Below are positions 13,001-32,855 of a stretch of DNA of 53,498 nucleotides, piece by piece. Both the position numbers and the translations under genes were made by a program. This DNA comes from a virus: positions 1 through 53,498 of the IMG/VR virus record IMGVR_UViG_3300031857_000256; one strand, given 5' to 3'. Each line of letters opens with the position of its first letter. Position 1 is the first letter of the stretch. The notes under the pieces are model-generated. The model worked only from the letters and a program-made list of their open reading frames with translations, did no database searches and was not told the DNA's origin.

Positions 13001-16000
13001 TTCAATGAATGTTAGTAGTTCTAGAGTTAATAGTATCACTTCATCATTTAATACTGTTATAAACATATTAGAGAATGGAACTGGTTCGTTACCAAATATT
13101 ATTTCAAATAATTTTAATAATGTTAAAGTAACAAATGGATTAAATTATGTATCAGCATCTTATAGTGGCACATCGATACAATCTACATTTATATCGGCAT
13201 CAATTTCAATTGTAACAAATATAATTGCGAATGGAACTGGTAGTTTACCTAATATAACTTTATATACATCATCAATATCATCATCTGCTGTTTTAGATGC
13301 ATATAATATATTAAAAGCACATATACCATTTATACAAGATGAAACAATCGCATACTTGAGTTCTTCTTGGAGTACCGCATCTTATGATGAGGCTAAATGT
13401 AGACGTGATATTGGTTTAATTGTAAGTGGAGCAGCTGAAGACCTTATATGGAATTCAAATTCTGCCTCCGTTGTAAATGGTAAATATTATTATGAGTATC
13501 CATCGCAGGCGCAAGGTGCACAATTAAATCAAACGTTAGATGGTGTATTCTATGCAAGTAAATTGGCACAAAAAGTAATATTAAATACTTTATTTACTTT
13601 ACCAACACCACAAACAAATACGGCATATGATTTATTAATTAATAATAAAGAGTTTATCCAAAACGAAACAATTGCATACATTAGTTCTTCTTGGAGTACA
13701 AAGGAATATAACGAAACAACTTGTAAGAGAGATGTTGGTTATATATTAGATGCAATTGCAACTGATGTTAAATGGGGTGGTAACGAAAGAGCAGTAACTG
13801 CGGGAGTGTTCTATTATAAATATCCATCAGCGGCAACCGGCTCTCAATTAAAAGAAACTGTGACTGGTGTAACTTACGCTAAAAATTTAGCAGATAAGTT
13901 ATTAAGAAATGCACAATTCCAAAAAGTATCTCAAAACAAATTACAAGCTAAAGACCTTATTGTAAATAATAAGAGTTTTATAGAAAATGAAGTAATTGCA
14001 TATGTATCGGCTAGTTGGAGCGAGTTTTCATATAACGAAACAACTTGTAAGAGAGATGTTGGTTATATATTAGATGCTGTAGCAACTGATATTATTTATG
14101 GTGGAAATGAGAGAAGCTATGAGGCTGGTAGATATTATTATTACGAACCGTCAACAGCAACTACAACTCAATTAGGCCCAACGTTAAGTGGTGTTAAACA
14201 CGCTAAAGGGTTGACACAACAAATACTTAAAAATTTATTATTTGTTAAACCATCTAATTCTGCACAAATTGCATACGAACTATTATTTAATAATAAGGCA
14301 CTTATACAAAACGAAACAATCGCATTTGTAAGCTCTTCTTGGAGTATGTTTAATTACAATGATGTTAAGTGTAGACGTGATGTGGGATATATTGTAGATG
14401 CAGTAGCAACTGATATTCTTTATGGTGGTAATGAAAGAGTTTCTGAAGCAGGAGAATATTATTACTTATATCCATCATTAGCAACCGTTGAAGGTGATGG
14501 TAACGAATCCGGACAATTAGACCAAACATTGGATGGTGTTAAATACGCTAAAGGAATAGCACAAAAAATTGTAGCAAATACTTTATTACAAACACCAACA
14601 GAATCCGAAAGAGCTGGATATGATTTATTAATAAAGAATAAACAATTAATTCAAAAAGAAACTATTGCTTATATTAGTTCTTCTTGGAGTGGTATTGGTT
14701 CATTCTCTTATAATGAGGCAAGTTGTAGTAGAGATGTGGCTTACATTTTAGATAATGTAGCAACCGATTTATTATATGGTGGTAATGAAAGAAGTTCTAA
14801 AGCTGGTGAGTACTATTACTTATATCCATCTAAAGCAACTGTAATCAGTTCAATATCACCTGATACTAATTCTCAAAAAGGACCAACAATAGATGGTGTA
14901 ACCTTTGCTGCAGGAATAGCACAAACTATTTTAAATAATACTACATTAATACAACCAACCGATTATGTTAAATCGGCAGTAAGTTTATTAAAAGCAAATA
15001 GGCAATTTATACAAAATGAAACAATTCAATACATAGATGCATTCTTCCCTTACTTAACTTATTTAAGAGAAAAATGTAGACGTGATGTTGGATATATTGT
15101 TGATGGTGTAGCAACTGATTTATTCTATGGTGGAAACCAAAGAAGTATAACTTCTGGTGATTACTACTTTAGATATCCAAACAAAGCAACAACATCGGAC
15201 CAACTTTCAGAAACGGTATCCGGTATTGAATACGCTAAAGCAGTATCTAAAAAAGTAGTACAAAATATTTTATTAAGAAAGCCGGTTACTAAAGATAATA
15301 CATCCGCTAATATAAAGGCAACTGATACAAATCAATATACTTCATCTATAAATGTTAGTACAACTGAAATAAGTAAGATTAGTTCTTCATTCTCAATTGT
15401 AACTGATATAATAGCAGGTGGTGTTAGTGTATCTCCAATAAAAGTATTAAATACAGAAGCTGGAATTAAAGTAACCAATGAAACGGCAGTAACTTCATCT
15501 ATAAATGGTGGCAACACATATGCTGATTTAGTAACATCATCATTCAATTTAGTAAGAGATATTATTTACTATGGTGAAGCTGGTATACCTGATGCATTGG
15601 CTAGAAACTATGATTATGGTTTCGAATTACAAACTCCAACTTTATTACATATCAGTTCAACTGAACAAAGTGTAATAGGTGGAACTAATAATGCTAGTGA
15701 TTTGGTTGATGTTAGTGCCTCTTACGCAACTGTAATTGATATTGTTAATAATGGTACTGGTTCTATACCAACTATTATAGAAAATACATCATCATCAATA
15801 AATGTAATAGGTGGAACTCCATATCAATCTCCTGTAGCCGGTACAACTACTGATATAAATAAAATTGGTAGTGGATTTGGAATTGTAACTGATATAATTG
15901 AAGGAACTTATCCAACTGTTGTATCAAACACAACAAATGGTGTTAAGGTAACAACAACTCCTCAGATATTAATAAATGGTAGTACCGCACAAAGATTACA

Positions 16001-19000
16001 AGCTAAGTTAGTATCATCATCATTTGCGGTAGTAACAAATATTATCTTAAATGGTACTGGTTCTCAAACATATGTAGCACCATCGGCAACCGCAAATACT
16101 AATCCAAGAATAACATCAGCTTACAATTTATTAGTAAGTAATAGTTTAATGATTGTTGATGAGACTATAGCATATATGAGTTCATCTTGGAGTACATTTG
16201 ATTATAATGAAGAAAAATGTAGACGTGATTTAGGATATATTATTGATGGAGCAGCTTCTGACCTTTTATATGGTGGAAACTCTGGTTCATTCTTAAATGG
16301 ACAATTTTATTTATTAATACCATCACAAGCAACATCTTCTCAATTAGACCAAACTCTAACTGCTATTAGATATGCTAGTGGTATTTCTGAAAAGGTAATT
16401 CAGAGCCAATTATTAACACATATTTCAGCATCACAAAGTACATCAGCATCTTATGTATCATTATTAGAGAACAAAGAGTTCATACAAAACGAAGCAATTG
16501 CTTATGTATCTTCGTCTTGGTCAACATTTGATTATAATGAAACAACTTGTAGACGTGATGTGGGATATATTGTAGATGCGGTAGCAACTGACCTTTTATA
16601 TGGCGGTAATGAAAGAAGTTGGATAGCAGGAGATTACTATTTCAGATATCCATCACAGGCTACAACTTCACAATTACAACCAACATTAGATGGTATAAAT
16701 TACGCCAAAGGTGTGGCAATGAATGTAGCTAAAAATACTACATTTGTAACTGCTGATGTAAATACACAATTCTCTTATGATATTTTATTAGCAAATAAAG
16801 AGTTCATACAAAATGAAACTGTTGCATTTGTAAACGCTAAGTATCCTAACTTATATTATGACCAAATCAAATGTAAGAGAGATGTGGGATACATTGTAGA
16901 TGCAGTAGCAACTGATTTATTGTATGGTGGAAACGAAAGAGCAGCAATAGCTGGTGAGTTCTATTACTTATATCCTTCATTGGCAACTGAATCAGAGCAA
17001 GTAGTTGAAACAACTGCGGCAATTGATTATGCTAGAAGATTAAGTTTAGAAATAATTCAAAAGAATACCATTTCTACTCCACAAATTGTATCAAATACAT
17101 TTAATAATATCAAAGTAACAAATATATCACAAATAAGTGGTGTAGCGGCAACTCAAACTGAAGCAACTGCTATATCTTCTTCTATTGGTATTGTAATTGA
17201 TATCGTATCGAATGGTACTGGTTCATTACCAATATCAATTCCTTATACAACACCATCTACTGACCCTAATGTAATAAATGCATATAATAACTTAAAAGCT
17301 AATATACCATTTATCGCAGCAGAGACAGTTGCATATATAAGTTCGTCTTGGGTGACTGGTTCTAATTCGGATACGGCATTTGTTTACAATGATTTAAGTT
17401 GTAGTAGAGATGTTTCGTTGATTGTTAGTGGAGCAGCAGAAGATTTATTATGGAATAGTAATTCGGCATCTATTGTAAATGGTAAGTATTATTATGAATA
17501 TCCATCACAAGCAACCAATACACAATTGGATGAAACATTGGATGGTATTTCTTACGCATCTCAATTAGCACAAAAGATTGTATTGAATACATTGTTTGTA
17601 ACCGCATCACCAACCGCTTCAGCAGTTTACAACGCATTAAAAACCAACAAACCATTCATACAAGCAGAAACAATAGCATTTGTATCTTCATCTTGGAGTT
17701 CATTAAATTATAGTGAAGCTAAATGTAAGAGAGATGTTGGTTTAATAGTGGATGCAGTAGCAACTGATATTCTTTACGGAGGAAATCAAAGAAGTGCAAC
17801 TGCTGGACAATATTATTTCAAATATCCATCACAAGCTACTGGTTCTCAATTAGATTCAACATTGAACGCAATTGATTTCGCAGGTGGTACGGCTAAGAAT
17901 GTAATTACAAACACAACATTTGTAACTGCATCTCAATCAGTATCAGCATCGGTTGAATTATTAAGAAACAATAGATTATTCATACAAAATGAAACTATGG
18001 CTTACTTAACTGCTAGCTGGAGTTCATTTGAATATAACAAAGAGAAGTGTAAGAGAGATGTTGGTTATATCTTAGATGGTGTAGCAACTGATATCTTATA
18101 TGGTGGTAATGAACGAAGTGTAATGAGTGGAGATTTCTATTACAAATATCCTTCAAAGGCAACTTTATTAGGAGATGGTGATGGTGTGGGTCAATTAGGA
18201 CAAACTTTAGATGGTATTATTTACGCAAGTAGAATAGCTCAAAAAGTTGCACAAAATATACAATTCGTAACAGCATCATCAGCAGTATCTGCCTCATTTG
18301 ATTTGTTGAGAAAGAATAAAAATTTCATAGCAGCTGAAACTATCGCTTATGTTAGTTCTTCTTGGAGTGGAGTTTATTATAATGAAGCAAGTTGTTCACG
18401 TGATGTGAAATATATCATAGACGCGGCGGCAACCGATTTATTATATGGTGGAAGTGAAAGAAGCGTAACCGCTGGTTCATACTATTTCTTATTCCCATCA
18501 AAAGCAACTGTAAAAGGTGTACCATCTGAGGCAGCACAATTAGACCCAACAATTACAGGCGTAAGATATGCTGGTAAATTGGCAAGTAAGGTTGTAACAA
18601 ACCCAACTTTCATATTACCATCAGCATCTCTATTAACAACTGTTAATTTATTAACATCGAATAAACCATTAATACAAAAAGAAACTATAACATTCTTGAG
18701 TTCTTCTTGGAGTACATTGAAGTATAATGAAACGAGTTGTTCTCGTGATTTAGGATTTATTATAGACGCGATTAGAACTGACTTAGTTTATGGTGGTAAC
18801 GAAAGAAGTATTGAAGCAGGTTCTTATTATTATAAGATTCCATCTGTTGCAATTAAAGAATCATATACTGATAACGGCGAAGCTGGACAAAAAATCCAAA
18901 CTGTTGATGGTATTGATTTCGCAAGAGGCCTTTCTGAAAAGATTGTTTCAAACACTTTATTAACTTATCTAGCACCATCTACAAAGAGAAGACAAGCGGC

Positions 19001-19601
19001 TGATAGATTGAGAGGTTCTAAAGATGAATTAAGACAAAGAGCAATCGGATACACAAACGGAGCATTCCCTTATTTAGTTTATAACGAAGCGAGTTGTTCT
19101 CGTGATACTGGTTTGATTGTTGATGCTTGTTGTACTGATTTATTATATGGTGGAAACGAAAGAGGTATTGCAGCGGCATCATCTTACTATAATGGTCAAT
19201 ACGGTAACGCAATTGCCGTAACTAGAGACCAACTTTTAGAGACTTTGGAAACTAATAGATATTTAAGAACAAGAGCAGAGTTTATAGCAGCTGGAGCACC
19301 ATTAGAATCATTTGGTTCATTGATTGTGGCAACTGGTATTGACTACTCTTATAATGGTAGTGGTGTTACGTTTAAAGCACTTCCACCGAATCAGGGTGGT
19401 AGTGGTGTTGCAAATCCGGCATTTGAAATTACCGAATTGGGTGGTGGTAGAATTTACTTTACATCTGGTAACGAAACTGGTGACTTTAGAATTGGTACGG
19501 GATTAAGTATTAATCAGGCAACTGGTACTCTTGTGGGTAGAACATTTAGTAAATCTCTATTCTCATTGGTAACTCCGTTCTCATTGGCACTACAAATATA
19601 A
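7053..19601 (+). CDS. Giant tail fibre / virion structural protein 1, 4182 aa
   Basis: Start codon overlaps the upstream stop (TAATG). Order of parts: residues 1-105, ISGSL/TGSL beta spacers; about 109-350, a right-handed beta-helix domain of the pectate-lyase/DUF1565 type opening with LYVSSTDGDDNNDGRS and PLRTIKRAASLA; about 368-610, five copies of a 'B' module (SSSF-IV--II-NGTGS-P...IKVTN); about 612-725, a degenerate cupredoxin-like domain; about 757-4060, alternating blocks of an 'A' module (FIQNETIAY, SSSW, CKRDVGYI, GGNER, YYYLYPS) and more B modules; 4060-4182, a C-terminal domain with ALPPNQGGSGVANP, GGRIYFTSGNETGDFRIG and TPFSLALQI. The A repeat and this C-terminus are familiar from giant structural proteins of T4-like cyanophages. 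A cysteine precedes xRD in each of the 22 A copies. No enzymatic active site is evident; a long, flexible virion fibre is likely. Confidence 0.85.
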   Translation: MARLIPRKQIEEQQNISGSLTIQQNVDIGNDAIISGSLFVSKSFFLGNDVTDKSEITGSVFLTGSLEIDGQLVFKGPEAVLSATASNTLLAVDTQRYAGILAKDFGANVPTLYVSSTDGDDNNDGRSIQYPLRTIKRAASLASPGYDGRYGFDTGSIFNGYVIKVQAGTYLEDNPVILPKNTTIWGAGLRITKINAKNPTEDLFLVNSGCYIAEVTMGGLRLFPDQINPVKGFAVAFQPGAFITTSPYVQNCSQISNQENSFTELYEDIPPGGGGLYVNGDVIDPDSPLASMVLDAYTQISPNGVGCLVNGRGFIQLVSFFNNFSYYSIRVNNGGHATLNNSNISFGLYGMYASGSRFISGSGGNIAARDSVRGTWSVVVDVLNKGLEAGLPTITKLNTDEGIRLTSPALYTQSRVSAGTTLSTTAASEIASDYKLISAIVENGTADFPTLLAQSSNKGYGFDSPYNILGEVQITSSISATNTDLTNISGSYAALLSILANGTGSFTFKSNNEDAIKVTNTTEYPLGTASPFTASVSSSFSTIIDILKNGLSASPVLVSNTSSSLLIGTGSQYFTGISSSIAVRNSVSASFGIVYGVLQNGTGSNILPIPENHQRVYTIVNSGSIGFKFDDVNNSLNPTLTLFRGETYKFNVDATDEFGGLFYPFWIRTAQIADIGTKYDYNKGVINNGDSTGTITFTVPYDAPNTLYYVADNNSVMGGKLNIVNSSTTPRYLIQNTLTYPETILSSSIASTDVDKINAYDLLIGNKELVKDEVVRFVNSSWSDLDYNQETCKRDVGFIIDGVAKDLLFGGNEESLRSALYYYIYPSEATTTQKEPTTSAVKYAAGLVDKLLSNVTLQSANNDKLAVAESILDNRIFVQNETIAFLSSSWSGDDGFYYNEEKCKRDVGYILDAVATDALYGGNERAITAARFYYLYPSAATVAGVPSSTAQLEQTLTGIRYAAGVVGALLKNKTFQTASATTQAAYDLLKANKELIQNETIQFINVTYPQLKYNQTKCRRDVGYIIDSVATDLLYGGNERGVVSGRNYYAYPSIATSIQRRETIAGVRYAKIIGDYIVQNIILDTPRIVNNDEKNIKVTALENITSSFSGTITEKALISSSFSIVEGIIKGGLQAIPSVLAQNTNQNWGEANPLNVTSNVQTTSSYVTPNEINTIDRNFGIVTNIIDNGISLEPVLTSSLDGLIKVTDIAQISGTSATNNETASISSSFAYVMNVIAGGLGQLQPLVSNLSASIVVTNTPFISSTAASGSIGTSISSSMNTIATIISGGLGVVPTLISSVANSIKVTNTPQYISASYSGSLEDVSFVSASIAIVTSIIKGGPSPAKVVYTTPVSTVNAKASYDLLKQNIPFIQNETIAYLSSSWAGFEYDEVKCKRDVGLIISGAAEDLIWNSNSASIVNGEYYYEFPSQATDTQLNQTLDGINYASRLAQKLIQNIEFNTAPINNQNADTLLKNNKVFIQNETIAYMSSSWGLFEYNEAKCRRDVGYIIDAVRTDIVYGGNERTIEAGRYYYLYPSEATSTQLQQTTDAINYASRLAQKVVANTTFVVADTNALNASNLLSLNKSLIASEVVEYVSSSWSGVQYDENKCKRDVGYILEAVRTDLVYGGNERTTIAGQYYYLFPSAATVGGEPTATQQLDPTITGVNYARRLAQNIVLNKTLVSPTQAVLDARELVKTNTTFIQQNVIEYISDTYPTLNYKVDKCFRDVRFIVDGVLTDLVYGGNERSLQSGEFYYKYPSQATDSQANETIDAINFAKELSKLIAIGGKAIEDGFDTVVDIISSGSLGYPTLVSNTLAGIKATNEPQFVTQSSVLTSDKSIVSASFGNVINIIDKGVNVIPTIISSTNRGINKLGNVQTTSSITPVATDINKVGSGFDIVLNIIANGTGSIPSKITNTSSVIKRTDSVQYITTASISSTYLTNANSAFDIVLDVLENGTGSLPSLVKNVNGLVKLTNSTQYTSSMNVSSSRVNSITSSFNTVINILENGTGSLPNIISNNFNNVKVTNGLNYVSASYSGTSIQSTFISASISIVTNIIANGTGSLPNITLYTSSISSSAVLDAYNILKAHIPFIQDETIAYLSSSWSTASYDEAKCRRDIGLIVSGAAEDLIWNSNSASVVNGKYYYEYPSQAQGAQLNQTLDGVFYASKLAQKVILNTLFTLPTPQTNTAYDLLINNKEFIQNETIAYISSSWSTKEYNETTCKRDVGYILDAIATDVKWGGNERAVTAGVFYYKYPSAATGSQLKETVTGVTYAKNLADKLLRNAQFQKVSQNKLQAKDLIVNNKSFIENEVIAYVSASWSEFSYNETTCKRDVGYILDAVATDIIYGGNERSYEAGRYYYYEPSTATTTQLGPTLSGVKHAKGLTQQILKNLLFVKPSNSAQIAYELLFNNKALIQNETIAFVSSSWSMFNYNDVKCRRDVGYIVDAVATDILYGGNERVSEAGEYYYLYPSLATVEGDGNESGQLDQTLDGVKYAKGIAQKIVANTLLQTPTESERAGYDLLIKNKQLIQKETIAYISSSWSGIGSFSYNEASCSRDVAYILDNVATDLLYGGNERSSKAGEYYYLYPSKATVISSISPDTNSQKGPTIDGVTFAAGIAQTILNNTTLIQPTDYVKSAVSLLKANRQFIQNETIQYIDAFFPYLTYLREKCRRDVGYIVDGVATDLFYGGNQRSITSGDYYFRYPNKATTSDQLSETVSGIEYAKAVSKKVVQNILLRKPVTKDNTSANIKATDTNQYTSSINVSTTEISKISSSFSIVTDIIAGGVSVSPIKVLNTEAGIKVTNETAVTSSINGGNTYADLVTSSFNLVRDIIYYGEAGIPDALARNYDYGFELQTPTLLHISSTEQSVIGGTNNASDLVDVSASYATVIDIVNNGTGSIPTIIENTSSSINVIGGTPYQSPVAGTTTDINKIGSGFGIVTDIIEGTYPTVVSNTTNGVKVTTTPQILINGSTAQRLQAKLVSSSFAVVTNIILNGTGSQTYVAPSATANTNPRITSAYNLLVSNSLMIVDETIAYMSSSWSTFDYNEEKCRRDLGYIIDGAASDLLYGGNSGSFLNGQFYLLIPSQATSSQLDQTLTAIRYASGISEKVIQSQLLTHISASQSTSASYVSLLENKEFIQNEAIAYVSSSWSTFDYNETTCRRDVGYIVDAVATDLLYGGNERSWIAGDYYFRYPSQATTSQLQPTLDGINYAKGVAMNVAKNTTFVTADVNTQFSYDILLANKEFIQNETVAFVNAKYPNLYYDQIKCKRDVGYIVDAVATDLLYGGNERAAIAGEFYYLYPSLATESEQVVETTAAIDYARRLSLEIIQKNTISTPQIVSNTFNNIKVTNISQISGVAATQTEATAISSSIGIVIDIVSNGTGSLPISIPYTTPSTDPNVINAYNNLKANIPFIAAETVAYISSSWVTGSNSDTAFVYNDLSCSRDVSLIVSGAAEDLLWNSNSASIVNGKYYYEYPSQATNTQLDETLDGISYASQLAQKIVLNTLFVTASPTASAVYNALKTNKPFIQAETIAFVSSSWSSLNYSEAKCKRDVGLIVDAVATDILYGGNQRSATAGQYYFKYPSQATGSQLDSTLNAIDFAGGTAKNVITNTTFVTASQSVSASVELLRNNRLFIQNETMAYLTASWSSFEYNKEKCKRDVGYILDGVATDILYGGNERSVMSGDFYYKYPSKATLLGDGDGVGQLGQTLDGIIYASRIAQKVAQNIQFVTASSAVSASFDLLRKNKNFIAAETIAYVSSSWSGVYYNEASCSRDVKYIIDAAATDLLYGGSERSVTAGSYYFLFPSKATVKGVPSEAAQLDPTITGVRYAGKLASKVVTNPTFILPSASLLTTVNLLTSNKPLIQKETITFLSSSWSTLKYNETSCSRDLGFIIDAIRTDLVYGGNERSIEAGSYYYKIPSVAIKESYTDNGEAGQKIQTVDGIDFARGLSEKIVSNTLLTYLAPSTKRRQAADRLRGSKDELRQRAIGYTNGAFPYLVYNEASCSRDTGLIVDACCTDLLYGGNERGIAAASSYYNGQYGNAIAVTRDQLLETLETNRYLRTRAEFIAAGAPLESFGSLIVATGIDYSYNGSGVTFKALPPNQGGSGVANPAFEITELGGGRIYFTSGNETGDFRIGTGLSINQATGTLVGRTFSKSLFSLVTPFSLALQI
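8890..9228 (+). other. Degenerate cupredoxin-like domain in giant fibre 1
   Basis: The encoded segment runs from PTLTLFRGETYKFNV through NNGDSTGTITFTVP to LYYVADNNSVMGGKLNIV and aligns with the two intact domains of giant fibre 2. Of the four expected copper ligands only Met remains: the first His is Tyr (FYPFWI), Cys is Ala and the second His is Asn. It probably keeps the fold without metal. Confidence 0.65.
9324..19230 (+). repeat. Alternating A-module (22 copies) and B-module array
   Basis: By hand I count 22 A modules (about 85-125 residues, marked by C-x-RD and GGN) in five blocks of 3, 4, 6, 3 and 6 copies. B-module blocks of 5, 6, 5 and 1 copies lie between them, and five more B copies precede the array. 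Approximate A-block limits are 9324-10290, 11115-12410, 13290-15290, 16110-17085 and 17275-19230. The copies differ at DNA level, so the array is old rather than freshly amplified. First and last copies of blocks carry distinctive signatures (see findings). Confidence 0.85.
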
Positions 19602-20615: not shown

Positions 20616-23600
20616 ATGGCAATTAGTAATCTTTTAACGGGTAGGGTTAGGGTTGTATCCCCAAAAAATGTAACACAGGACAGGTATCAATTTATTGATT
20701 TATCTCAAGTTGAACCCAATTTAGGTGTTCCAAACTTTTCTGCCTCATTATCAGGCTCTCCGGCTATCGTAGTTTCGGATGACCAGGGTAATAGAGGATT
20801 TGTAAGAAGTTTAGATTTAGATAGAGTAAGTGGACAATTTACAGGTTCATTTACCGGAAGTGCAGATTTAACTGGTTCTTTTAGAGGAGATTTTAGTGGA
20901 GATGGTTCAAAATTAATTAATTTACCAATTTCCGATACCGCACAAAAATTAGCATCTGCATCTTTTACCGCATCATTTAGTAGTGGTGGTCTTGATATCA
21001 ATACAAATACCAATATACAAGGTAATTTGTCCGTAACCGATGATGTAAGAATTGGTGGAAACTTATATGTTTCAAAATCTATATATGCAGACCAATTAAT
21101 TGTTAATGTAATATCATCTTCAATTATATATTCATCTGGTTCAAATAAATTTGGTGATGAATCAATTGATAAGCAAGAATTTACTGGTTCGGTTGAAATA
21201 AGAGATAGAGTTGGTGCAAATGAAATTACAGCATCTTCTATTTTGAGTCAGTTTACTGGTTCATTCTTTGGAGACGGTAGAGATTTAAAAAATGTTCCAG
21301 CTATATTATTAGCAAGTGGCTCGGTAACCGCTTCTATTGTAGGTGACCTTATTATATTCAATGCACAAAGTGCATCGTTTTTAGGTGGCGTACAAATTAC
21401 AGGTAGTTTATTATTAAACACAGGATCTGTTGTAATTGAATCGGGTTCTATTGTTGCAGCAAGGGGTGTTATCAATCAACTTACTGCATCTTCTATTATA
21501 AGCCAGTTTACTGGTTCATTCTTTGGAGATGGTAGAGATATATTCAATCTACCACAGGCTACAAAATTAGCAACGGGATCTGTAACCGCATCAGTTAGTC
21601 CTCAATTTGGATTTAAAGTAGAATCTATTTTAAGAGGTTCTGAATTTACTGGTAGCGTAGATGTATTAGGTAATATATCAGCATCTATGTTTAGTGGTAG
21701 TGGTAGAGGATTATTTGATATTCCACGTTCTGCTCTAACACCGGATGCATTAACATCTACCGAGATATCATCGGGTTCAGTAACGGCATCTGTGGCACCG
21801 GAATATGGATTTAGAGTTTTATCAATAGCAAGTGGTTCACACTTTAGCGGAAGTGCATATATTGATTCATCTTCTTTTATATACGCTGATGGTTCTAGAT
21901 TAAGAAACATACCAAGAAGTGCATTAACCGAAGATGCATTGGTTACTACCGAAATCAAATCTGGTTCAGTAACCGCATCGGTTGCACCCAATTACGGATT
22001 TAAAGTATTATCAATTGATAGTGGTTCGCATTTTAGCGGAAGTGTTTATATCGATTCTTCTTCATATCTTTATTCCGATGGTAGATATTTAAGAAACATA
22101 CCAAGAAGTGCATTGACTGAAGATGCGTTAGTTTCTACTGAAATTAAATCTGGTTCAGTAACAGCATCAGTTTCACCTGAATATGGATTTATTGTAACCA
22201 CTCCATTTAGTGGTTCCAGTTTTGGTTCTAGATTTACTGGTTCGGTTGATGTGAGTGGAAGTGTTAGAGCATTTTCATTTATTGGTGATGGTTCTCAATT
22301 AACAAATGTTGCATCGGTAGTTTCTCCGAGAATTGCAAGTGGTAGTGTAACTGCATCGGTATCACCAAATTTTGGGTTTGTAGTATTTTCACCAAATAGT
22401 GGGTCTCAATTTACAGGTTCACTTTTTGTAAGTGGAAATATAGAAATATATACGGGTTCTTTTTCTGGTAGTGGTAAATTATTGAGAGAAATTCCTGTAT
22501 CTGCTATACCTGATTTAGACCTTTCAAAAATAGGTAGTGGTTCTGTAACGGCATCTATAACGCCAAATAAAGGATTTACTGTAAATATATTTTCACAATT
22601 TAGTGGAAGTATGGTGGTATCTTCTTCTGTATTTGAAATACCTACTGCATCATTAGATACTGTTTTTGATGTAAGGAATGATGGAACTACCGCATATATT
22701 TTTAGTAATGCGGTAACGGGTTCTAATCCAACATTAACATTAGCTAGAGGAGTTCTATATACATTCAACTTAAATGCGGCGGGACATCCATTCTATATCA
22801 AAACCGTACAATCATCTGGTACTACAAACGCATATAATACCGGTGTAACTAATAATGGAGATGATGTGGGTGTTATAACATTCATTCCATCGGCCGGTGC
22901 TCCTGATACTCTTTACTATAACTGCCAATTACATTCCGCAATGGGTGGTAGAATTAATATTGTTGATAAAATAGTAAGACCTGCGGAAATTAAATTTATT
23001 GGAGATACTACTGTAACGGGTAGTTTATTTGTAAAAGATAGAATAGAAGCTAGAGAAATAAGTGCATCATTTAGTGGTTCATTTAGAGGAACTTTTGATG
23101 GAGATGGTTCTAATTTATTTAATTTACCATCTGCAACAAGATTGGCATCTGGTTCCATTACTGCATCGGTAAGTCCAGATAGAGGATTTGTTGTACAATC
23201 ACAAAATAGTGGTTCACAATTCACTGGTAGTATTAATGTAACTGGTTCCGTAACTGCAATTAACTTTATTGGAAGTGATTTTAGTGGTTCATTTCAAGGG
23301 GATGGTAGTAGATTAGTAAATCTTCCGTTACCTCAACCAAATAGAATTTTAGATGGACCAGTAACGGCATCGGTTTCATCTATTGATGGATTTGTTGTAA
23401 AATCTCAAGCAAGTGGTTCTCAATTTAGTGGAAGTTTAAGAATTAGTGGTAGTATATTTTTAGCATCTGGTTCTTTCTATTCTGGAAGTGGTAGAGGATT
23501 ATTTGATATTCCAAGAACCGCTTTAACTGAAGATGCGTTTTTAATTGATAGAATCGTAAGTGGTAGTGTAACTGCATCCGTATCACCTCAATTTGGATTT

Positions 23601-26600
23601 AGAGTTGTTTCGTATGATAGTGGTTCACAATTTACAGGAAGTTTAAATGTAAGTGGAAGCATATTTTTAGCATCTGGTTCTTTTTATTCTGGAAGTGGTA
23701 AAGGATTATTTGAAATTCCACGTTCTGCGATATCCGATTTAGATATATCATTAATATCATCTGGTTCGGCAACTGCTTCTATTTCACCTAACAAGGGATT
23801 ATTAGTTAATGTACCAACTACAATTAATGGATTTTTAGTTGTAACCGGTTCTACTGATATAAAAGCAAATTTAGTAGTAACGGGTTCTGCAATTATTAGT
23901 AGTTCTTTATTATCTAAAGGAGTTTCTAGATTTGAATCTGGAGTTTCTGCATCAGTATTTAGTGGTAGTGGTGCTGGGTTGACAGACATACCTTTTTCGG
24001 CATTATCACAAGAATTAACTAGAATTGCAACTGGTAGTGTAACGGCATCGGTTTTTCCTGATAAAGGATTTGTTGTAGAATCATTAAGAAGTGGTTCACA
24101 ATTTACCGGAAGTTTGAGAGTTAGTGGTAGTATATTTTTAGCATCTGGTTCTTTCTATTCTGGTTCTGGTGAAGGATTGTTTAATATTCCAAGAACCGCT
24201 TTAACACCGGACGCATTAGAATCAACATACATAGCATCAGGTTCTATAACAGCTTCGGTATCACCTAGATTTGGATTTAGAGTAGAATCTCTGGAAAGTG
24301 GTTCTCAAATTACTGGTAGTATAAGAATTAGTGGAAGTTTGTTTGCAACAAATGACTTAACGATTAGTGGTAGCGGAAATGTATTGGGAGATATTAATGT
24401 ACAAGGTGATGCAACGGTATCGTCTGGTTCTTTCTTTGTTGGAGATGGTAGATATCTATCAAACATAACATTAGCTAATTTAGCAATTGATTCAACAAAA
24501 ATATTTAGTGGTTCAGCAACCGCATCGGTATCACCAACTGAAGGATTTGAAGTAAATGTTCATTCTAGATTTGATGGAAGTTTTATAGTATCATCATCTG
24601 GAAGACCTACACCTGATTATTTAATTGATACAATTGTTAATGTAACAAACGATGGTTCAAATGCATATATAATAAGTAATGCTTCTATATCTGGTTCAAA
24701 CCAAACAATAACATTACAAAGAGGATTACAATATACATTTAATGTAAATGCATCTGGACATCCATTTTGGATTAAATACGTTAATTCTACCGGAACTATA
24801 TGGGAATATAGTGGAAGTATAACAAACAACGGAGAAGATAATGGAACAATACTTTGGACTCCACCATCTGGTTCTCCTAATGTTCTTTACTATAATTGCC
24901 AGTTACATAGTAGTATGGCTGGTCAAATAAATTTAATTGACTACACGGAAATACCGGCAGAAATTAAATTTATTGGTGAAACTAAAGTAGAAGGTAATAT
25001 AACCGCATCTATGTTTAGTGGTAGTGGTAAGGGATTGTTTGATATTCCTTTCTCAAACTTAACTGGTGATGCGTTTAGAATTGCAAGTGCAAGTGTAACA
25101 GCATCGGTTTCTCCAGATAGAGGATTTATTGTAGAATCATTCCAAAGTGGTTCTGGATTTAGCGGAAGTATTTATATAGATTCATCATCTTTCATATATT
25201 CAGAAGGTACTTATTTAAGAAACATACCAAAATCTGCACTTACGGAAGATGCATTAGTTTCTACTGAAATTAAATCGGGTTCTGTAACCGCATCGGTATC
25301 TCCTGATTTTGGATTTAAAGTACAAACTCCATTTACATCATCTGTATCTGAAAGTGTGTTTACAACACAAATTGCTTCACAATTTACCGGTTCGGTTTCA
25401 ATTAGTGGAAGTTTATTTGTTAATGATATTAGTGGTGGATTGTTTGTAGAATCCGGTTCATTTATTTACGCGGAAGGTACATATTTAAGAAACATACCAA
25501 AATCGGCAATTACTGAAGATGCATTATTATCTTCGTTTATTGTATCTGGTTCAGTAACAGCATCAGTTTCACCTGATTTTGGATTTAGAGTTGTAACACC
25601 ATTTACTGAATCGCAAGTGGGTTCTCAATTTACAGGAAGTGTTGATGTTAGTGGTTCATTAAGAGCATTTTTCTTAATAGGAGATGGTTCGCAGATTACA
25701 AACGTACAAGCAGCGGCATCTCCGTTGATAGCAAGTGGTTCGGCAACTGCATCGGTAGCAAGTGGTGATAGATTAGTAGTAACAACTGCTAAAACTGGTT
25801 CGGAAATTGGTTCTGAATTTACCGGTTCAATAGAAGTTAGTGGTAGTATAAGAGCAACCGATGATATATACGCAGACTTCTTCTATGGTGATGGTAGATA
25901 TATCACAAATGTAGTAGCCGCAGCGGCACCATTCATTGGAAGTGGTAGTGCAACTGCATCGGTAGCGGATGGTGAACGTTTTGTTGTAATTACTGCAAAA
26001 ACTGGTTCACAAATTGGTTCTGAATTTACTGGCTCTGTTGAGATTAGCGGTTCATTAATAGTAAAAGATGATGTAACTGCGGATTTCTACTTTGGTGATG
26101 GTAGATTCCTTACCAATGTACAAGCGGCGGCGGCACCATTGATTGCTAGTGGTAGTGCAACTGCATCGGTACAAAGTGGTAGAATATTTGAAGTAATTAC
26201 TAAAGCTCCATCTGGTTCATTTGGTTCTCAATTTACCGGTTCGGTAGCTATTAGTGGTGCATTATCAGCATCTTTATATCAAGGAGATGGTGGTGGATTA
26301 TTTAACATTCCTGCATCAGCACTTCAAAATCTTCAATTAGATAGAATTCAATCCGGTTCTGCTAGAGCAATTATAAGTCCTGATGAACTAAATGTAAACG
26401 TACCAATAACAGCGGCACTTTACATAGGTGATGGTGGTGGACTATTTAATATCCCTGCAAATGCATTGCAAGACCTTAAGTTAGATAGAATTATATCTGG
26501 TTCCGTAGAAGCTGTTATTTCTCCAAATAAAGGTTTAGAAATTAATACTAGAGTAAGAATCTTCTCTGGTTCGGCAGAAATAAGTGGTGGTTTATTTATA

Positions 26601-29600
26601 AGTGGTGGTAATGTTGTTCTACAAAGTGGTTCGGCATTCGTTGGAGATGGAAGTGGTTTAACAAACATTAATATCGCTAACTTAGCGTTTCAAACTCCAA
26701 TATTAAAGAGTGGTTCGTTTACTGCATCAATTTCACCGGATAATGGATTTGTTGTTAATACATCAGCTAGTATTTGGGGTAATGTATATGTGGGCAATGA
26801 TTTAAAAGTTGCACATAATATAAGTGCATCTAATACCATATCTGCACAATTATTTACTGGTTCATTTAGAGGAACATATACATTCCAAGGAGTTGGACCA
26901 ACTGCATCTGCGGACTACGATATTTTAAGATACAACGAAACGCAAGGATATTATATTCCACAACCAGAAACTTCATTAACTGAAACGGTATCGTTTAATA
27001 ATATAAGTGATTTAACAATCGTTCACAATTTGGGAATCAGATATCCAGTTGTTCAAGTTTACGCAACTGGTTCCGAAGACCAAATTTTACCTGGTACTAT
27101 TAAATCAATTGATGAAGATACAATTCAAATTATATTTGCTGGATTAACTTCCGGACATGTTGTAATCGGTAGTGGTGGTTCTTTAATACAAGGTACAATT
27201 CAAGGTGATAGAGTATTCGGTACCGTATTATCTGCATCATATGCATTTAAAGCATCTTTTGCAGATAATGTAGCTGGATTTGATTCTGCATCATTATCTC
27301 AATTATCGGCATCTTTAGGAGATACTGCACAATATATAAGAAATAATCAAACCGCATCAATGAGTGTTGGTAGAGCGGTTTCTGCATCATACGCACTAAC
27401 TGCATCTTATGTTGAGAATTTGAGTGGATTGAATTTGGTTGAATATGTAAGAAATGACCAAACATCTTCAATGACTGTATTGAGTTCATCATTTGCAATA
27501 TCTTCGTCTTACGCACTTTATGCAGCGAATGCGGCAAATGTTGATACATCTAATTTTGTATTGAACTCACAAACCGCATCTATGTTAGTAGGTACGGCTT
27601 CATTTGCATATACTGCGAGTGTTGCTCTATTTGCATTAAATGCGGCAAATACTGATACCGCATCGTTCTTACAAATTAATAAAGACCAAACTATAAATGC
27701 ATCACTTACTATTAGTGGAAGTATAGGTGTAAGTGGTAGTATAATTGGAAATGGTGCAATACAAATAAATAATTTACCAACTGGTTCATCTGAAGAAGTT
27801 GTAATTTGGAATAGTGTAACAAAAAGATTAGAAAGAAGAAACGTAGCAGCGGCTGTAGGTTCTTCTGGTACATCTGGTACCGAAGGCTCTGGAGGTACAT
27901 CTGGTACATCTGGTTCATCTGGTTCATCTGGAAGCAGTGGCACTGCAGGAAGTAGTGGTACATCCGGAGAAGATGGCACATCAGGAAGTTCTGGTACATC
28001 GGGAACTGCTGGAAGTTCTGGTTCATCTGGTTCATCTGGAAGTTCTGGAAGTAGTGGAACTGCTGGTTCATCTGGAAGTTCAGGAAGTAGTGGTTCATCT
28101 GGAAGCAGTGGCACATCAGGAAGTTCGGGAACAACCGGGTCAGCAGGAACATCTGGTACATCAGGAAGCTCTGGTTCATCTGGTACATCAGGAAGTAGTG
28201 GCACATCAGGAAGTTCTGGAACCACTGGTTCATCTGGTTCATCTGGTAGTAGTGGCACATCTGGAAGTGGAGGCACATCTGGAAGTAGTGGTTCATCAGG
28301 AACTTCTGGAACCGCAGGCACATCTGGAACATCTGGAACAACCGGGTCAGATGGCACATCTGGAAGTAGCGGCACATCAGGAAGTTCTGGTACATCTGGA
28401 ACATCTGGAAGTTCTGGCACGAGTGGTTCATCTGGAAGCTCGGGTTCTTCTGGTTCATCTGGAAGTGGTGGTACATCTGGTACGAGTGGCACATCTGGTT
28501 CAACTGGAACTGGAGGTTCATCTGGTACGAGTGGCACATCTGGCACGAGTGGCACATCAGGAAGTTCCGGTTCATCTGGTTCTTCTGGAAGTGGAGGCAC
28601 ATCCGGTACATCTGGTAGTGCGGGTAGTGGTGGCTCTGCAGGTTCATCTGGTACGAGTGGCACTAGTGGCACATCTGGTTCAACTGGTAGTGGTGGTTCA
28701 TCTGGTACAAGTGGAAGTTCTGGAACCGGAGGCACAGGTGGTTCTGCAGGTACTTCGGGTAGTTCTGGTAGTAGTGGCACATCCGGTTCAACTGGTTCCG
28801 ATGGTACTTCTGGTATAGATGGTTCATCTGGAAGTTCTGGTTCATCTGGTACATCTGGAGAAGATGGTACATCAGGAAGTTCTGGTACATCAGGAACTTC
28901 TGGAACTAGTGGCACAACCGGGTCAGCGGGTACTTCTGGTTCATCTGGAAGTAGTGGAAGTTCTGGTTCATCTGGTTCATCGGGAAGTTCGGGAAGTAGT
29001 GGTTCATCTGGTACAACTGGTTCTGATGGTACATCAGGTAGTTCGGGTTCATCTGGAAGTTCAGGAAGTAGCGGCACGAGTGGTTCATCTGGCAGTAGTG
29101 GTACAACAGGTTCATCTGGTTCATCGGGAAGTTCAGGAAGTAGTGGAAGTTCTGGTACATCTGGAACTGATGGCTCGACTGGTTCTGCAGGTACATCGGG
29201 AAGCTCTGGCACATCAGGCACAACTGGTTCAGAAGGTACATCTGGAAGTTCTGGAAGTAGTGGAAGTTCCGGACAAGATGGTACATCAGGAAGTTCAGGA
29301 AGTAGTGGTTCATCTGGTAGCTCTGGAAGCAGTGGAAGTTCTGGTACATCGGGACAAGATGGCACATCGGGACAAGATGGCACATCTGGAACTGATGGCT
29401 CAACTGGTACTGCAGGTTCGAGTGGCACATCGGGAAGTTCGGGTACAACTGGTTCAGAAGGTACATCAGGAAGTTCTGGTACGCAAGGAAGTAGTGGTTC
29501 ATCTGGAAGTTCTGGAAGTGCTGGTTCATCTGGCTCATCTGGAAGCAGTGGCACATCTGGAAGTACTGGTTCTTCAGGATTAAATGGAACATTCTTCGGC

Positions 29601-31496
29601 TCATCGGGTACATCGGGTTCAAATGGCACATCTGGTACATCTGGTACATCTGGAAGTAGCGGAAGTTCGGGTTCATCTGGATTAAATGGTACATTCTTTG
29701 GTACTTCTGGCACATCAGGAAGCTCTGGTACCGATGGTTCAACCGGTACTGCAGGGTCAACTGGTAGTGCAGGTTCATCCGGCACTGCGGGCAGTTCGGG
29801 TACATCTGCAGAAGGAACATCTGGTACATCTGGTTCATCTGGTAGTTCGGGAACTTCTGGTTCAACTGGTTCAGCCGGCTCGGCAGGTTCATCTGGCACA
29901 TCAGGAAGTAGTGGCACATCCGGAAGTGGTGGTACATCGGGACAAGATGGTACATTCTTTGGTTCATCTGGTACAACCGGTACATCTGGTTCAACTGGTT
30001 CTTCTGGTTCGGCAGGCACTTCTGGTTCAACTGGTTCCGCTGGTACAAGTGGATTTGATGGAACATTCTTTGGTTCACATGGTACATCTGGAACTTCTGG
30101 AAGCTCTGGTACGAGTGGCACATCTGGTAGTACTGGTACCGCGGGTACATCTGGATTAGGTACTGATGGTACATCTGGAACTTCTGCAGTAGGTACATCT
30201 GGTACGAGTGGCACAACGGGAACTGATGGCAGCTCTGGAAGTAGTGGTACAACGGGTACTTCCGGTTCATCTGGATTAAATGGTACGTTCTTTGGTTCAT
30301 CTGGAACCGCAGGTAGTTCGGGTAGTTCGGGCTCAACTGGAACGAATGGCACATCGGGTAGTTCGGGTTCATCTGGTTCTTCTGGATTAAATGGTACATT
30401 CTTTGGTTCTTCTGGAACTTCTGGAAGTAGTGGCACAACGGGTACTTCTGGTTCAAGCGGAATGAGTGGCACGAATGGCACATCTGGTTCATCCGGATTG
30501 AATGGTACATTCTTTGGTAGTTCGGGTACTGCAGGTAGTTCTGGTACATCGGGTGCTGGTTCATCTGGTACGAGTGGCATAACTGGTACAAACGGTACTG
30601 CGGGTACATCCGGATTTGATGGTACATTCTTTGGTAGTTCGGGTACTGCAGGTAGTTCTGGTACATCTGGAGCAGGTAGTTCCGGTACATCAGGATTAGG
30701 TACTAATGGTTCATCTGGTACATCTGGACAAGACGGAACATTATTTGGTTCATCTGGTACATCTGGTACAAATGGTTCTAGTGGAACATCGGGAGCAGGT
30801 ACATCTGGTACAAGTGGATTGGGTACTAACGGTTCTGCGGGTACATCTGGATTTGATGGTACTTTCTTTGGAAGTAGTGGTACATCTGGTTCAAACGGTT
30901 CATCGGGACTTACTGGTTCAAACGGTACGAGTGGCACAACTGGCTCAAATGGAATAAGTGGCACAGATGGTACATCCGGTTCATCTGGATTTATGAATGT
31001 ATCTGGTACTACTGAAAATGGCGTAATTACTTGGCAAAATGTGCCAGCTGGGGGTGTAGTTGAAAGTAATATTACATTTGATGGAAGTACATTAAGCGTA
31101 ACTGGTAATGTAACAACAACAACATCAGTAGCAGCAACTACGTTTGTTTCTGCTGGTACTTATGTAATAGGTACAACGTTTAGAGAAACATATTCAGACC
31201 AAGGAACTGGTGGAAGCGTAACATTGGACCTTGCAACTGCAAATAATTTCAGAAGACAATTCAATGGAAGTGCAACAATTACTTTCAGTAATCCACCATC
31301 ATCACCTAATGGATTTGGATTTACATTTACTATGGTTAATGCGGGTGCATATTCTATTACATGGCCTGTGAGTATTGATTGGGTTGGAGGACTTTCACCT
31401 GTATTAACTTCAGCCGGAACTGATGTATTAACATTCTTTACATTTAATGGAGGTACAACATATTATGGATTTGTGGTAGGAAAAAATATGAGTTAA
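20616..31496 (+). CDS. Giant tail fibre protein 2 with cupredoxin-like domains and collagen-like shaft, 3626 aa
   Basis: Residues 1-2080 are built mostly from about 24 copies of a module around GSVTASVSP-(D/N)-x-GF-x-V followed by SGSQFTGSL, VSGSI, SGSG-GLF-IP and AL. Two cupredoxin-like domains (about 683-785 and 1339-1442) interrupt the series, each with a complete His/Cys/His/Met set. Residues about 2080-2190 form an ungapped beta domain (HNLGIRYPVVQVYATGS), followed by helical ASYALTASY/DQTASM repeats. Residues 2415-3458 are a collagen-like Gly-X-Y tract made of GSS, GTS and similar triplets with no proline and ten FFG-type interruptions. The C-terminal 170 residues form a beta-rich tip ending YGFVVGKNMS. 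A long trimeric fibre with a rod-like distal shaft is likely. The gene has a TATTTATA element 20 bp upstream and a GGAAAG ribosome-binding site. Receptor and copper occupancy are unknown. Confidence 0.85.
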   Translation: MAISNLLTGRVRVVSPKNVTQDRYQFIDLSQVEPNLGVPNFSASLSGSPAIVVSDDQGNRGFVRSLDLDRVSGQFTGSFTGSADLTGSFRGDFSGDGSKLINLPISDTAQKLASASFTASFSSGGLDINTNTNIQGNLSVTDDVRIGGNLYVSKSIYADQLIVNVISSSIIYSSGSNKFGDESIDKQEFTGSVEIRDRVGANEITASSILSQFTGSFFGDGRDLKNVPAILLASGSVTASIVGDLIIFNAQSASFLGGVQITGSLLLNTGSVVIESGSIVAARGVINQLTASSIISQFTGSFFGDGRDIFNLPQATKLATGSVTASVSPQFGFKVESILRGSEFTGSVDVLGNISASMFSGSGRGLFDIPRSALTPDALTSTEISSGSVTASVAPEYGFRVLSIASGSHFSGSAYIDSSSFIYADGSRLRNIPRSALTEDALVTTEIKSGSVTASVAPNYGFKVLSIDSGSHFSGSVYIDSSSYLYSDGRYLRNIPRSALTEDALVSTEIKSGSVTASVSPEYGFIVTTPFSGSSFGSRFTGSVDVSGSVRAFSFIGDGSQLTNVASVVSPRIASGSVTASVSPNFGFVVFSPNSGSQFTGSLFVSGNIEIYTGSFSGSGKLLREIPVSAIPDLDLSKIGSGSVTASITPNKGFTVNIFSQFSGSMVVSSSVFEIPTASLDTVFDVRNDGTTAYIFSNAVTGSNPTLTLARGVLYTFNLNAAGHPFYIKTVQSSGTTNAYNTGVTNNGDDVGVITFIPSAGAPDTLYYNCQLHSAMGGRINIVDKIVRPAEIKFIGDTTVTGSLFVKDRIEAREISASFSGSFRGTFDGDGSNLFNLPSATRLASGSITASVSPDRGFVVQSQNSGSQFTGSINVTGSVTAINFIGSDFSGSFQGDGSRLVNLPLPQPNRILDGPVTASVSSIDGFVVKSQASGSQFSGSLRISGSIFLASGSFYSGSGRGLFDIPRTALTEDAFLIDRIVSGSVTASVSPQFGFRVVSYDSGSQFTGSLNVSGSIFLASGSFYSGSGKGLFEIPRSAISDLDISLISSGSATASISPNKGLLVNVPTTINGFLVVTGSTDIKANLVVTGSAIISSSLLSKGVSRFESGVSASVFSGSGAGLTDIPFSALSQELTRIATGSVTASVFPDKGFVVESLRSGSQFTGSLRVSGSIFLASGSFYSGSGEGLFNIPRTALTPDALESTYIASGSITASVSPRFGFRVESLESGSQITGSIRISGSLFATNDLTISGSGNVLGDINVQGDATVSSGSFFVGDGRYLSNITLANLAIDSTKIFSGSATASVSPTEGFEVNVHSRFDGSFIVSSSGRPTPDYLIDTIVNVTNDGSNAYIISNASISGSNQTITLQRGLQYTFNVNASGHPFWIKYVNSTGTIWEYSGSITNNGEDNGTILWTPPSGSPNVLYYNCQLHSSMAGQINLIDYTEIPAEIKFIGETKVEGNITASMFSGSGKGLFDIPFSNLTGDAFRIASASVTASVSPDRGFIVESFQSGSGFSGSIYIDSSSFIYSEGTYLRNIPKSALTEDALVSTEIKSGSVTASVSPDFGFKVQTPFTSSVSESVFTTQIASQFTGSVSISGSLFVNDISGGLFVESGSFIYAEGTYLRNIPKSAITEDALLSSFIVSGSVTASVSPDFGFRVVTPFTESQVGSQFTGSVDVSGSLRAFFLIGDGSQITNVQAAASPLIASGSATASVASGDRLVVTTAKTGSEIGSEFTGSIEVSGSIRATDDIYADFFYGDGRYITNVVAAAAPFIGSGSATASVADGERFVVITAKTGSQIGSEFTGSVEISGSLIVKDDVTADFYFGDGRFLTNVQAAAAPLIASGSATASVQSGRIFEVITKAPSGSFGSQFTGSVAISGALSASLYQGDGGGLFNIPASALQNLQLDRIQSGSARAIISPDELNVNVPITAALYIGDGGGLFNIPANALQDLKLDRIISGSVEAVISPNKGLEINTRVRIFSGSAEISGGLFISGGNVVLQSGSAFVGDGSGLTNINIANLAFQTPILKSGSFTASISPDNGFVVNTSASIWGNVYVGNDLKVAHNISASNTISAQLFTGSFRGTYTFQGVGPTASADYDILRYNETQGYYIPQPETSLTETVSFNNISDLTIVHNLGIRYPVVQVYATGSEDQILPGTIKSIDEDTIQIIFAGLTSGHVVIGSGGSLIQGTIQGDRVFGTVLSASYAFKASFADNVAGFDSASLSQLSASLGDTAQYIRNNQTASMSVGRAVSASYALTASYVENLSGLNLVEYVRNDQTSSMTVLSSSFAISSSYALYAANAANVDTSNFVLNSQTASMLVGTASFAYTASVALFALNAANTDTASFLQINKDQTINASLTISGSIGVSGSIIGNGAIQINNLPTGSSEEVVIWNSVTKRLERRNVAAAVGSSGTSGTEGSGGTSGTSGSSGSSGSSGTAGSSGTSGEDGTSGSSGTSGTAGSSGSSGSSGSSGSSGTAGSSGSSGSSGSSGSSGTSGSSGTTGSAGTSGTSGSSGSSGTSGSSGTSGSSGTTGSSGSSGSSGTSGSGGTSGSSGSSGTSGTAGTSGTSGTTGSDGTSGSSGTSGSSGTSGTSGSSGTSGSSGSSGSSGSSGSGGTSGTSGTSGSTGTGGSSGTSGTSGTSGTSGSSGSSGSSGSGGTSGTSGSAGSGGSAGSSGTSGTSGTSGSTGSGGSSGTSGSSGTGGTGGSAGTSGSSGSSGTSGSTGSDGTSGIDGSSGSSGSSGTSGEDGTSGSSGTSGTSGTSGTTGSAGTSGSSGSSGSSGSSGSSGSSGSSGSSGTTGSDGTSGSSGSSGSSGSSGTSGSSGSSGTTGSSGSSGSSGSSGSSGTSGTDGSTGSAGTSGSSGTSGTTGSEGTSGSSGSSGSSGQDGTSGSSGSSGSSGSSGSSGSSGTSGQDGTSGQDGTSGTDGSTGTAGSSGTSGSSGTTGSEGTSGSSGTQGSSGSSGSSGSAGSSGSSGSSGTSGSTGSSGLNGTFFGSSGTSGSNGTSGTSGTSGSSGSSGSSGLNGTFFGTSGTSGSSGTDGSTGTAGSTGSAGSSGTAGSSGTSAEGTSGTSGSSGSSGTSGSTGSAGSAGSSGTSGSSGTSGSGGTSGQDGTFFGSSGTTGTSGSTGSSGSAGTSGSTGSAGTSGFDGTFFGSHGTSGTSGSSGTSGTSGSTGTAGTSGLGTDGTSGTSAVGTSGTSGTTGTDGSSGSSGTTGTSGSSGLNGTFFGSSGTAGSSGSSGSTGTNGTSGSSGSSGSSGLNGTFFGSSGTSGSSGTTGTSGSSGMSGTNGTSGSSGLNGTFFGSSGTAGSSGTSGAGSSGTSGITGTNGTAGTSGFDGTFFGSSGTAGSSGTSGAGSSGTSGLGTNGSSGTSGQDGTLFGSSGTSGTNGSSGTSGAGTSGTSGLGTNGSAGTSGFDGTFFGSSGTSGSNGSSGLTGSNGTSGTTGSNGISGTDGTSGSSGFMNVSGTTENGVITWQNVPAGGVVESNITFDGSTLSVTGNVTTTTSVAATTFVSAGTYVIGTTFRETYSDQGTGGSVTLDLATANNFRRQFNGSATITFSNPPSSPNGFGFTFTMVNAGAYSITWPVSIDWVGGLSPVLTSAGTDVLTFFTFNGGTTYYGFVVGKNMS
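22663..22971 (+). other. Cupredoxin-like domain 1 of giant fibre 2 with intact copper-ligand set
   Basis: The encoded segment opens with PTLTLARGVLYTFNL and contains GHPFYIK and YYNCQLHSAMGG. Candidate ligands are H724, C770, H773 and M776, giving C-x2-H-x2-M with the first His 46 residues before Cys. The C-x2-H-x2-M spacing equals that of amicyanin (Cys92, His95, Met98). The strand order (LTL-RG--Y-F, then a late ligand loop and GGRINI) fits a cupredoxin fold. Metal binding is predicted, not shown. Confidence 0.7.
24632..24945 (+). other. Cupredoxin-like domain 2 of giant fibre 2 with intact copper-ligand set
   Basis: Second copy, with QTITLQRGLQYTFNV, GHPFWIK and YYNCQLHSSMAG. Candidate ligands H1382, C1428, H1431 and M1434 have the same spacing as in the first domain, although much of the surrounding sequence has changed. 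Both copies follow a strand ending in 'V-NDG' and lead into an EIKFIG(D/E)T segment, so the whole unit was duplicated. Confidence 0.7.
27858..30989 (+). repeat. Proline-free collagen-like Gly-X-Y tract of giant fibre 2 (1044 residues)
   Basis: Glycine occupies every third position for about 1044 residues, with Ser, Thr, Ala, Asp or Gly in X and Y and no proline. Ten interruptions of the type G-x-[DN]-GTFFG (one GTLFG) begin at 29586, 29688, 29949, 30060, 30282, 30393, 30504, 30621, 30735 and 30858; each adds one residue to the triplet phase. Synonymous Ser and Gly codons are mixed heavily. Because the repeat contains few stop triplets, long spurious frames appear in other frames and on the other strand. 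Confidence 0.9.
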
Positions 31497-32411: not shown

Positions 32412-32855
32412 ATGTATTTAAGAATTATAAATAATGAAATTAATTATCCATACTCTTTGCAAAAATTAAGAGAAGATAATCCCAATACGAGCTTCCCATC
32501 TGAAATGACAGAAAACTTAATGTTAGAATTAGATATTAGTGAAGTAAGAACTACTCCAAAGCCAAATGATTATACAAAAAATATTTCAGAAGGAACACCG
32601 ATATTAGTAGAAGGTGTTTACTATCAAAATTGGGTACAATCAGATGCAACTGAATCGGAAATAAATGATAGAATTGAAAATAAATGGATTGAAATTAGGG
32701 ATTTAAGACAACAACTATTATATGAATGTGATTGGACACAGCTATCTGATATTCCATCGGAAACAAAAGATTTGTGGACAACTTATAGACAAAATTTGAG
32801 AGATATAACAAATCAATCTAATCCTTATAATATTGTATGGCCAGTAAAACCTTAA
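32412..32855 (+). CDS. Phage tail assembly chaperone-like protein (Phage_tail_APC type), 147 aa
   Basis: Begins five bases after the preceding stop. The diagnostic part is the C-terminal third: LRQQLLYECDWTQLSD, then IPSETKDLWTTYRQNLRDIT and NIVWPVKP. This 'R--LL---DWTQL-D-P-----W--YRQ-LRDI----P-N--WP--P' signature belongs to the Phage_tail_APC family, often encoded next to tail-fibre genes and thought to help fibres fold or attach. The N-terminal half is less conserved and contains YPYSLQKLREDNPNTSFP, also typical of these proteins. It is likely a cytoplasmic fibre chaperone rather than a virion component, acting on the preceding adhesin or the giant fibres. Family assignment is fairly sure; the specific client is inferred from position. 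Confidence 0.75.
   Translation: MYLRIINNEINYPYSLQKLREDNPNTSFPSEMTENLMLELDISEVRTTPKPNDYTKNISEGTPILVEGVYYQNWVQSDATESEINDRIENKWIEIRDLRQQLLYECDWTQLSDIPSETKDLWTTYRQNLRDITNQSNPYNIVWPVKP

Follow-up and report, generated by a model that had tools for sequence, protein, structure and literature searches.

Cupredoxin-fold modules with a predicted copper site between the repeats of a giant phage tail fibre

The window analysed here is the whole 53,498-nucleotide stretch of viral DNA in IMG/VR record IMGVR_UViG_3300031857_000256, and all features described below lie on its plus strand. Two giant tail fibres are encoded in it. Giant fibre 1 (7053..19601, 4182 aa) matches the tail fibre families PHROG 4527 and 5342, and giant fibre 2 (20616..31496, 3626 aa) is a translated open reading frame whose adjacent reading frames match phage tail families. 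Further genes of the window include those for a tail fibre assembly or tail assembly chaperone protein (32412..32855; PHROG 4912, E 5e-15; PF16778, E 1.8e-14) and a contractile tail sheath protein (44189..46501; PHROG 23, E 1e-76; PF04984). Its tail genes, among them those for sheath, tube and tail chaperone, identify the virus, an aquatic phage, as contractile-tailed. The closest sheath from an isolated phage is that of Microcystis phage Mel-JY01, at 48%.

Fibre 2 is composed of GS-rich fibre repeats that hold two cupredoxin domains, with a long GTSGSS repeat region after them. The latter, at window positions of about 28000-31000, also yields long, probably spurious, open reading frames on the opposite strand. 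Domain 1 covers residues 682-786 (22659..22973) and matches the family profile at E 2.8e-51, while domain 2 covers residues 1339-1445 (24630..24950) and matches it at E 9.1e-48; at these values chance resemblance is excluded. Both domains are about 105 residues long and carry His, Cys, His and Met at the same spacing (46, 3, 3). In domain 1, the first predicted copper ligand is H724 (22785..22787), whose equivalent in a bacterial relative, L152, aligns with the ligand of amicyanin, and the predicted ligand loop is C770-x2-H773-x2-M776 (22923..22943). In domain 2, the translation gives the corresponding predicted ligand H1382 (24759..24761) and loop C1428-x2-H1431-x2-M1434 (24897..24917). The entire fibre contains no cysteines other than C770 and C1428. 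A reading of the DNA made from the sequence alone had placed two cupredoxin-like domains within 22663-24945. Its residue numbers and identical spacing are correct in the translated reading frame and its two domains stand; its starting coordinate falls mid-codon, and the two separate intervals given above are the better description. The domains are 57% identical to each other, with a dN/dS of about 0.34. When related giant fibres from other viral contigs are compared, the domain has a dN/dS of 0.11-0.36, which indicates purifying selection.

A third copy of the domain, absent from that earlier description, is found in fibre 1 (8895..9236, residues about 615-728; family profile E 1.4e-29). It is of the metal-free (apo) type and has apo-type relatives in other viral contigs. 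A profile search of the whole window places Y663, A711, N714 and M717 where the four ligands would stand, and the fold motifs NPTLTLxRGxTYxFNV, PFWI, GVxNNG and APNTLYY are retained. Consequently, the domain is able to serve in a fibre without metal. At least six other viral contigs, recognised by shared contig names, combine a metal-free relative of the fibre 1 copy with a metal-type relative of the fibre 2 copies (3300034104_003795, 3300047282_000660, 3300044641_003944, 3300008261_000129, 3300008120_000384 and 3300044568_000721), and the window is thus not alone in this arrangement. As a rule, giant-fibre relatives carry two or three copies of the domain per fibre 2.

The fold was assessed by structure prediction. 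The AlphaFold2 (AF2) model of domain 1, built with 60 related sequences and containing protein only, with no metal placed, has a mean pLDDT of 95.6, a pTM of 0.87 and eight strands. The first His sits immediately ahead of strand 45-48, the Cys ends strand 84-89, and the second His and the Met occupy the loop preceding strand 96-102. In the model, these positions are the standard cupredoxin layout. In a Foldseek search against solved structures, all 28 matches at E<=0.001 are cupredoxin-fold proteins, among them rusticyanin, copper nitrite reductase, AcoP, pseudoazurin, plastocyanin, laccases and CuA domains. In structural alignment with VIA-align, rusticyanin scores a Z of 9.0-10.3, and three-domain nitrite reductase reaches 10.8 through its N-terminal domain, with an rmsd of 2.5 across 96 residues. 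The AF2 model and the Foldseek and VIA comparisons thus agree on an eight-strand Greek-key beta-sandwich like that of solved cupredoxins, which bears out the fold proposed in the sequence-only reading. The fold of domain 2 is assigned from its identity to the modelled domain 1, and the invariant positions are kept. In a 277-residue model that includes fibre repeats, the domain has a pLDDT of about 96 and the flanks are mostly below 70, as expected for an independent module of a multimeric fibre modelled as a monomer.

The link to known copper proteins is more distant at the level of sequence. No cupredoxin was matched when the sequence of domain 1 was compared with PDB sequences, and the family profile meets solved cupredoxins weakly (copper nitrite reductase at E 0.04, auracyanin at E 0.31). 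Homology consequently rests on the fold, the profile and a bacterial bridge. This bridge is L152, a protein of 137 aa that matches the family profile at E 5e-23, scores above the cut-off of Pfam family PF00127 Copper-bind (23.0 vs 21.2), and aligns to amicyanin at E 3e-4 (1aac) and 4e-5 (variant) with His, Cys, His and Met all in register. The window domains themselves fall below the PF00127 cut-off and are unlisted at E<=1, and PF00127 matches occur in nine of 60 relatives, the best at E 0.0014. The window domains are also below the cut-off of the plant family PF25489 At5g54830-like, which is 27 bits against a best window score of 24.4 bits. Many family members give sub-threshold matches to both Pfam families, whereas the curated cut-offs of both lie above the scores of the window copies. 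In the PDB sequence and profile searches, no direct significant sequence homology to amicyanin was found for the window domain.

Comparison with the actual amicyanin sequence confirms that the C-x2-H-x2-M loop is of the amicyanin type. Amicyanin (PDB 1aac) and the window domain share the cupredoxin fold, the upstream His, and the C-x2-H-x2-M loop followed by x-G and a strand, and their ligands are in register through L152. They differ in that amicyanin is a soluble periplasmic electron carrier and has Asn after the His, whereas the window domain is embedded in a fibre and has Pro in that place. Rusticyanin and three-domain copper nitrite reductase (N-terminal domain; 2dv6, 6tfo), which match best in structure with a Z of 9.0-10.8, have an identity to the window domain of about 20-25%. 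The loop from Cys to His to Met is longer in rusticyanin.

The domain family extends well beyond this virus. Relatives of domain 1 occur in 315 phage records, nearly all of them cyanophages, and most of the matches listed carry the annotation gp9, baseplate wedge tail fibre connector. Cyanophage gp9 ends at its C-terminus in this domain, and the corresponding family, PHROG 677, is matched at E 7e-23 at profile positions 280-411 only. The domain thus resembles the C-terminus of gp9, and Syn19 gp9 retains H/C/H/M, whereas the match is confined to the last 115-130 or so of 412 profile residues and the rest of fibre 2 is not gp9; a match over the whole gp9 protein was not found. T4 gp9 is a trimer in an exposed position, and its C-terminal domain is where the long tail fibre is attached (PMC3004832). 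All four ligands are retained in P-SSM2, the podovirus P-SCSP2 and Syn19 gp9, as well as in an Actinomycetia phage and a subtilisin-like protein of S-H9-1. Among viral proteins, structures with the same fold are predicted for, among others, fibres of cyanophages, gp9 and 'beta-sandwich' proteins of giant viruses, and none of the matches listed bears a copper-protein name. The giant-virus proteins are Pithovirus and Marseillevirus entries (BFVD A0A481Z6J5, A0A481YVH3 and others).

Bacterial copies are mostly the C-terminal domain of proteins of 400-650 aa and sometimes a small secreted protein, and they occur in many aquatic Bacteroidota and Alphaproteobacteria. A classical membrane or electron-transport context was considered and not seen for these secreted single domains and C-terminal domains. 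In L085, L096 and L097 (PS1 clade and other alphaproteobacteria), proteins of about 430 aa, the domain closely related to the family is preceded by a second, more diverged cupredoxin-like stretch (NHPLSIS ... YYYCLFHGGM).

The behaviour of the ligands across relatives bears most directly on whether they form a site. The search seeds of a first ligand census included ligand residues. Because this carried a risk of sampling bias, the scan was repeated with a ligand-free pattern, which recovered H/C/H/M in 58 of 61 distinct copies; the remaining three are without two or three core ligands. Adding the relatives of one metal-free copy and those of the fibre 1 copy gives 186 distinct viral copies. 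All three core residues (His, Cys, His) are present in 157 of these and none in 28; one copy keeps a single core residue and no copy keeps two. The metal-binding residues of the viral copies are therefore kept or lost as one unit, with few exceptions. Independent variation of the ligands among homologues had been named in the sequence-only reading as grounds for abandoning a copper site, and this objection fails, since the core ligands are retained or lost together. In a 155-sequence set, the pairs C-H2, H1-H2 and H1-C show the strongest co-variation of all well conserved column pairs (phi of 1.0, 0.91 and 0.91, with the next pair at 0.74), and about 1% of control column triples have as many double losses as the ligands. 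On the best tree, there are 7-8 changes per core ligand and 8 independent contrasts, of which 1 to 3 fall on well supported branches, so that tree support for independent losses is weak. Cellular copies are intact in 74 of 79 cases; single ligand changes occur among them, with one Gln for the axial Met and two Tyr for Cys. Gln also replaces Met as the axial ligand in stellacyanin. Two features of a type 1 copper site are present: His, Cys, His and an axial Met/Gln residue at the standard fold positions (sequence and model), and a ligand set conserved as one unit (186 viral copies).

These counts also weigh on the alternative that the cupredoxin fold is only a stable beta-sandwich serving as adhesion or spacer module, in which the ligand residues serve core packing and virions contain the apo form. 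Such a role would be compatible with the fact that this virus and its relatives have copies that lack the site yet share the fold motifs, and with the occurrence of the domain at many positions in structural proteins. It would also agree with the behaviour of the axial Met, which is found in all 157 metal-type viral copies and largely persists where the other ligands are lost (20 Met and 9 Leu in the other 29); because of these 20 copies, conservation of Met alone is no proof of ligation. However, residues kept for packing should drift one at a time, and intermediate states are missing or nearly so in the viral copies. Moreover, the sequence motifs of the fold persist after replacement of all three core residues, which shows that packing does not need them. 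A purely structural role for the ligands is consequently regarded as unlikely, with a modest share of the probability.

The explanation considered probable is that fibre 2 carries self-folding cupredoxin modules between its repeats, with an amicyanin-type site that is selected as a unit and binds copper, which rigidifies an exposed knob. It builds on three computational results, namely the fold, the four-residue ligand set and the near all-or-none conservation of that set. Copper binding by the fibre 2 domains is itself a prediction from sequence and model. Each domain would be an independent cupredoxin module inserted between fibre repeats, the module being in effect an interchangeable building block of fibres, and each would hold an intact amicyanin-type mononuclear (type 1) metal site maintained as a unit by selection. 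Phage proteins assemble in a reducing, copper-poor cytosol, which counts against this explanation. One copper per domain would most likely be taken up extracellularly after lysis, where copper is expected to be available and such a site should bind it tightly. The bound copper would then stiffen, and possibly complete, an exposed adhesion knob that contacts a cell or particle surface. As the same module occurs without the site in fibre 1, metal would not be required for folding and would add a property in fibre 2, presumably stability and/or metal-dependent adhesion. Given the metal-free sister copy, a contribution to stability or to metal-dependent binding is thus more probable than a role in packing alone.

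A second alternative is that the site is real and holds another ion in vivo (zinc, Cu(I) only or iron), or that it is a Cys-His catalytic or covalent-linkage site. Co-loss of the ligands shows merely that the residues act as a unit, and zinc is known to enter cupredoxins during cytosolic expression. Iron has a precedent in phage fibres: at the tip of the T4 long tail fibre, gp37 binds it by HxH motifs, according to the passage of PMC11705849 that cites the T4 structure. Against another ion, an H / C-x2-H-x2-M set carried by a cupredoxin fold is the hallmark of type 1 copper, and the change from axial Met to Gln in one cellular relative agrees with copper chemistry. Against a catalytic site, the other invariant positions are the Y, P, N and G of the fold motifs, and there is no obvious catalytic partner. 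This alternative is accordingly considered improbable, more so than packing. Finally, a redox-active copper centre (electron transfer, redox sensing or oxidase-like activity at the host surface) would fit the electron carriers and copper oxidase domains among the closest folds, yet it is highly improbable, and classical electron transfer unlikely, given that the fibre shows neither a redox partner nor a second copper centre, that giant fibre 1 manages without the site, and that most bacterial relatives form the C-terminal domain of a larger protein, which is untypical of electron carriers.

Under the favoured explanation, copper bound by a fibre module, fibre 2 would resemble T4 gp37 in being a phage fibre that bears metal ions, as described for T4 in that part of PMC11705849; the two differ in that the iron is held through HxH motifs of the fibre trimer, whereas the predicted site lies inside one folded domain and uses other ligands. 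In addition, petE, a true plastocyanin gene of host origin with a metabolic function, is found in cyanophages (PMC3037559); it is a gene separate from the cupredoxin fibre domain. Among the open-licence papers searched, none links a cupredoxin with a phage tail fibre or bacteriophage virion, and a wider open-licence search of titles and abstracts returned nothing on copper-protein domains in phage fibres, a result that falls short of proving absence. What appears to be new is the cupredoxin fold serving as a fibre module.

If copper is bound, phage fibres would form a class of copper protein unreported in the papers searched, and such fibres would occur in hundreds of aquatic viral contigs and in cultured cyanophages such as P-SSM2 and Syn19. 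The joint retention or loss of the metal-binding residues across about 190 related viral sequences points to copper-bearing fibres as a possibility for many aquatic phages. Fibre stability or adsorption could then respond to copper, which is both scarce and toxic in seawater, and virions could hold a store of bound copper, an idea already put forward for iron. A bolder form of the proposal, in which virions of many aquatic phages, cyanophages included, bear stoichiometric type 1 copper on tail fibres or baseplate connectors and use it in host recognition or as a redox or metal-dependent switch, with metal-type and metal-free copies split between the two fibres, is speculative and rather doubtful.

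Natural metal-free copies, including the one in the same virus, provide a built-in control for the role of the metal. In the metal-free clade L323-L345, the axial Met is replaced by Leu in some members (for example L331, L333, L339, L343 and L344), as is expected after loss of the site. A second metal-free group (L356-L358 and L364) has N/S/D/L at the four ligand positions.
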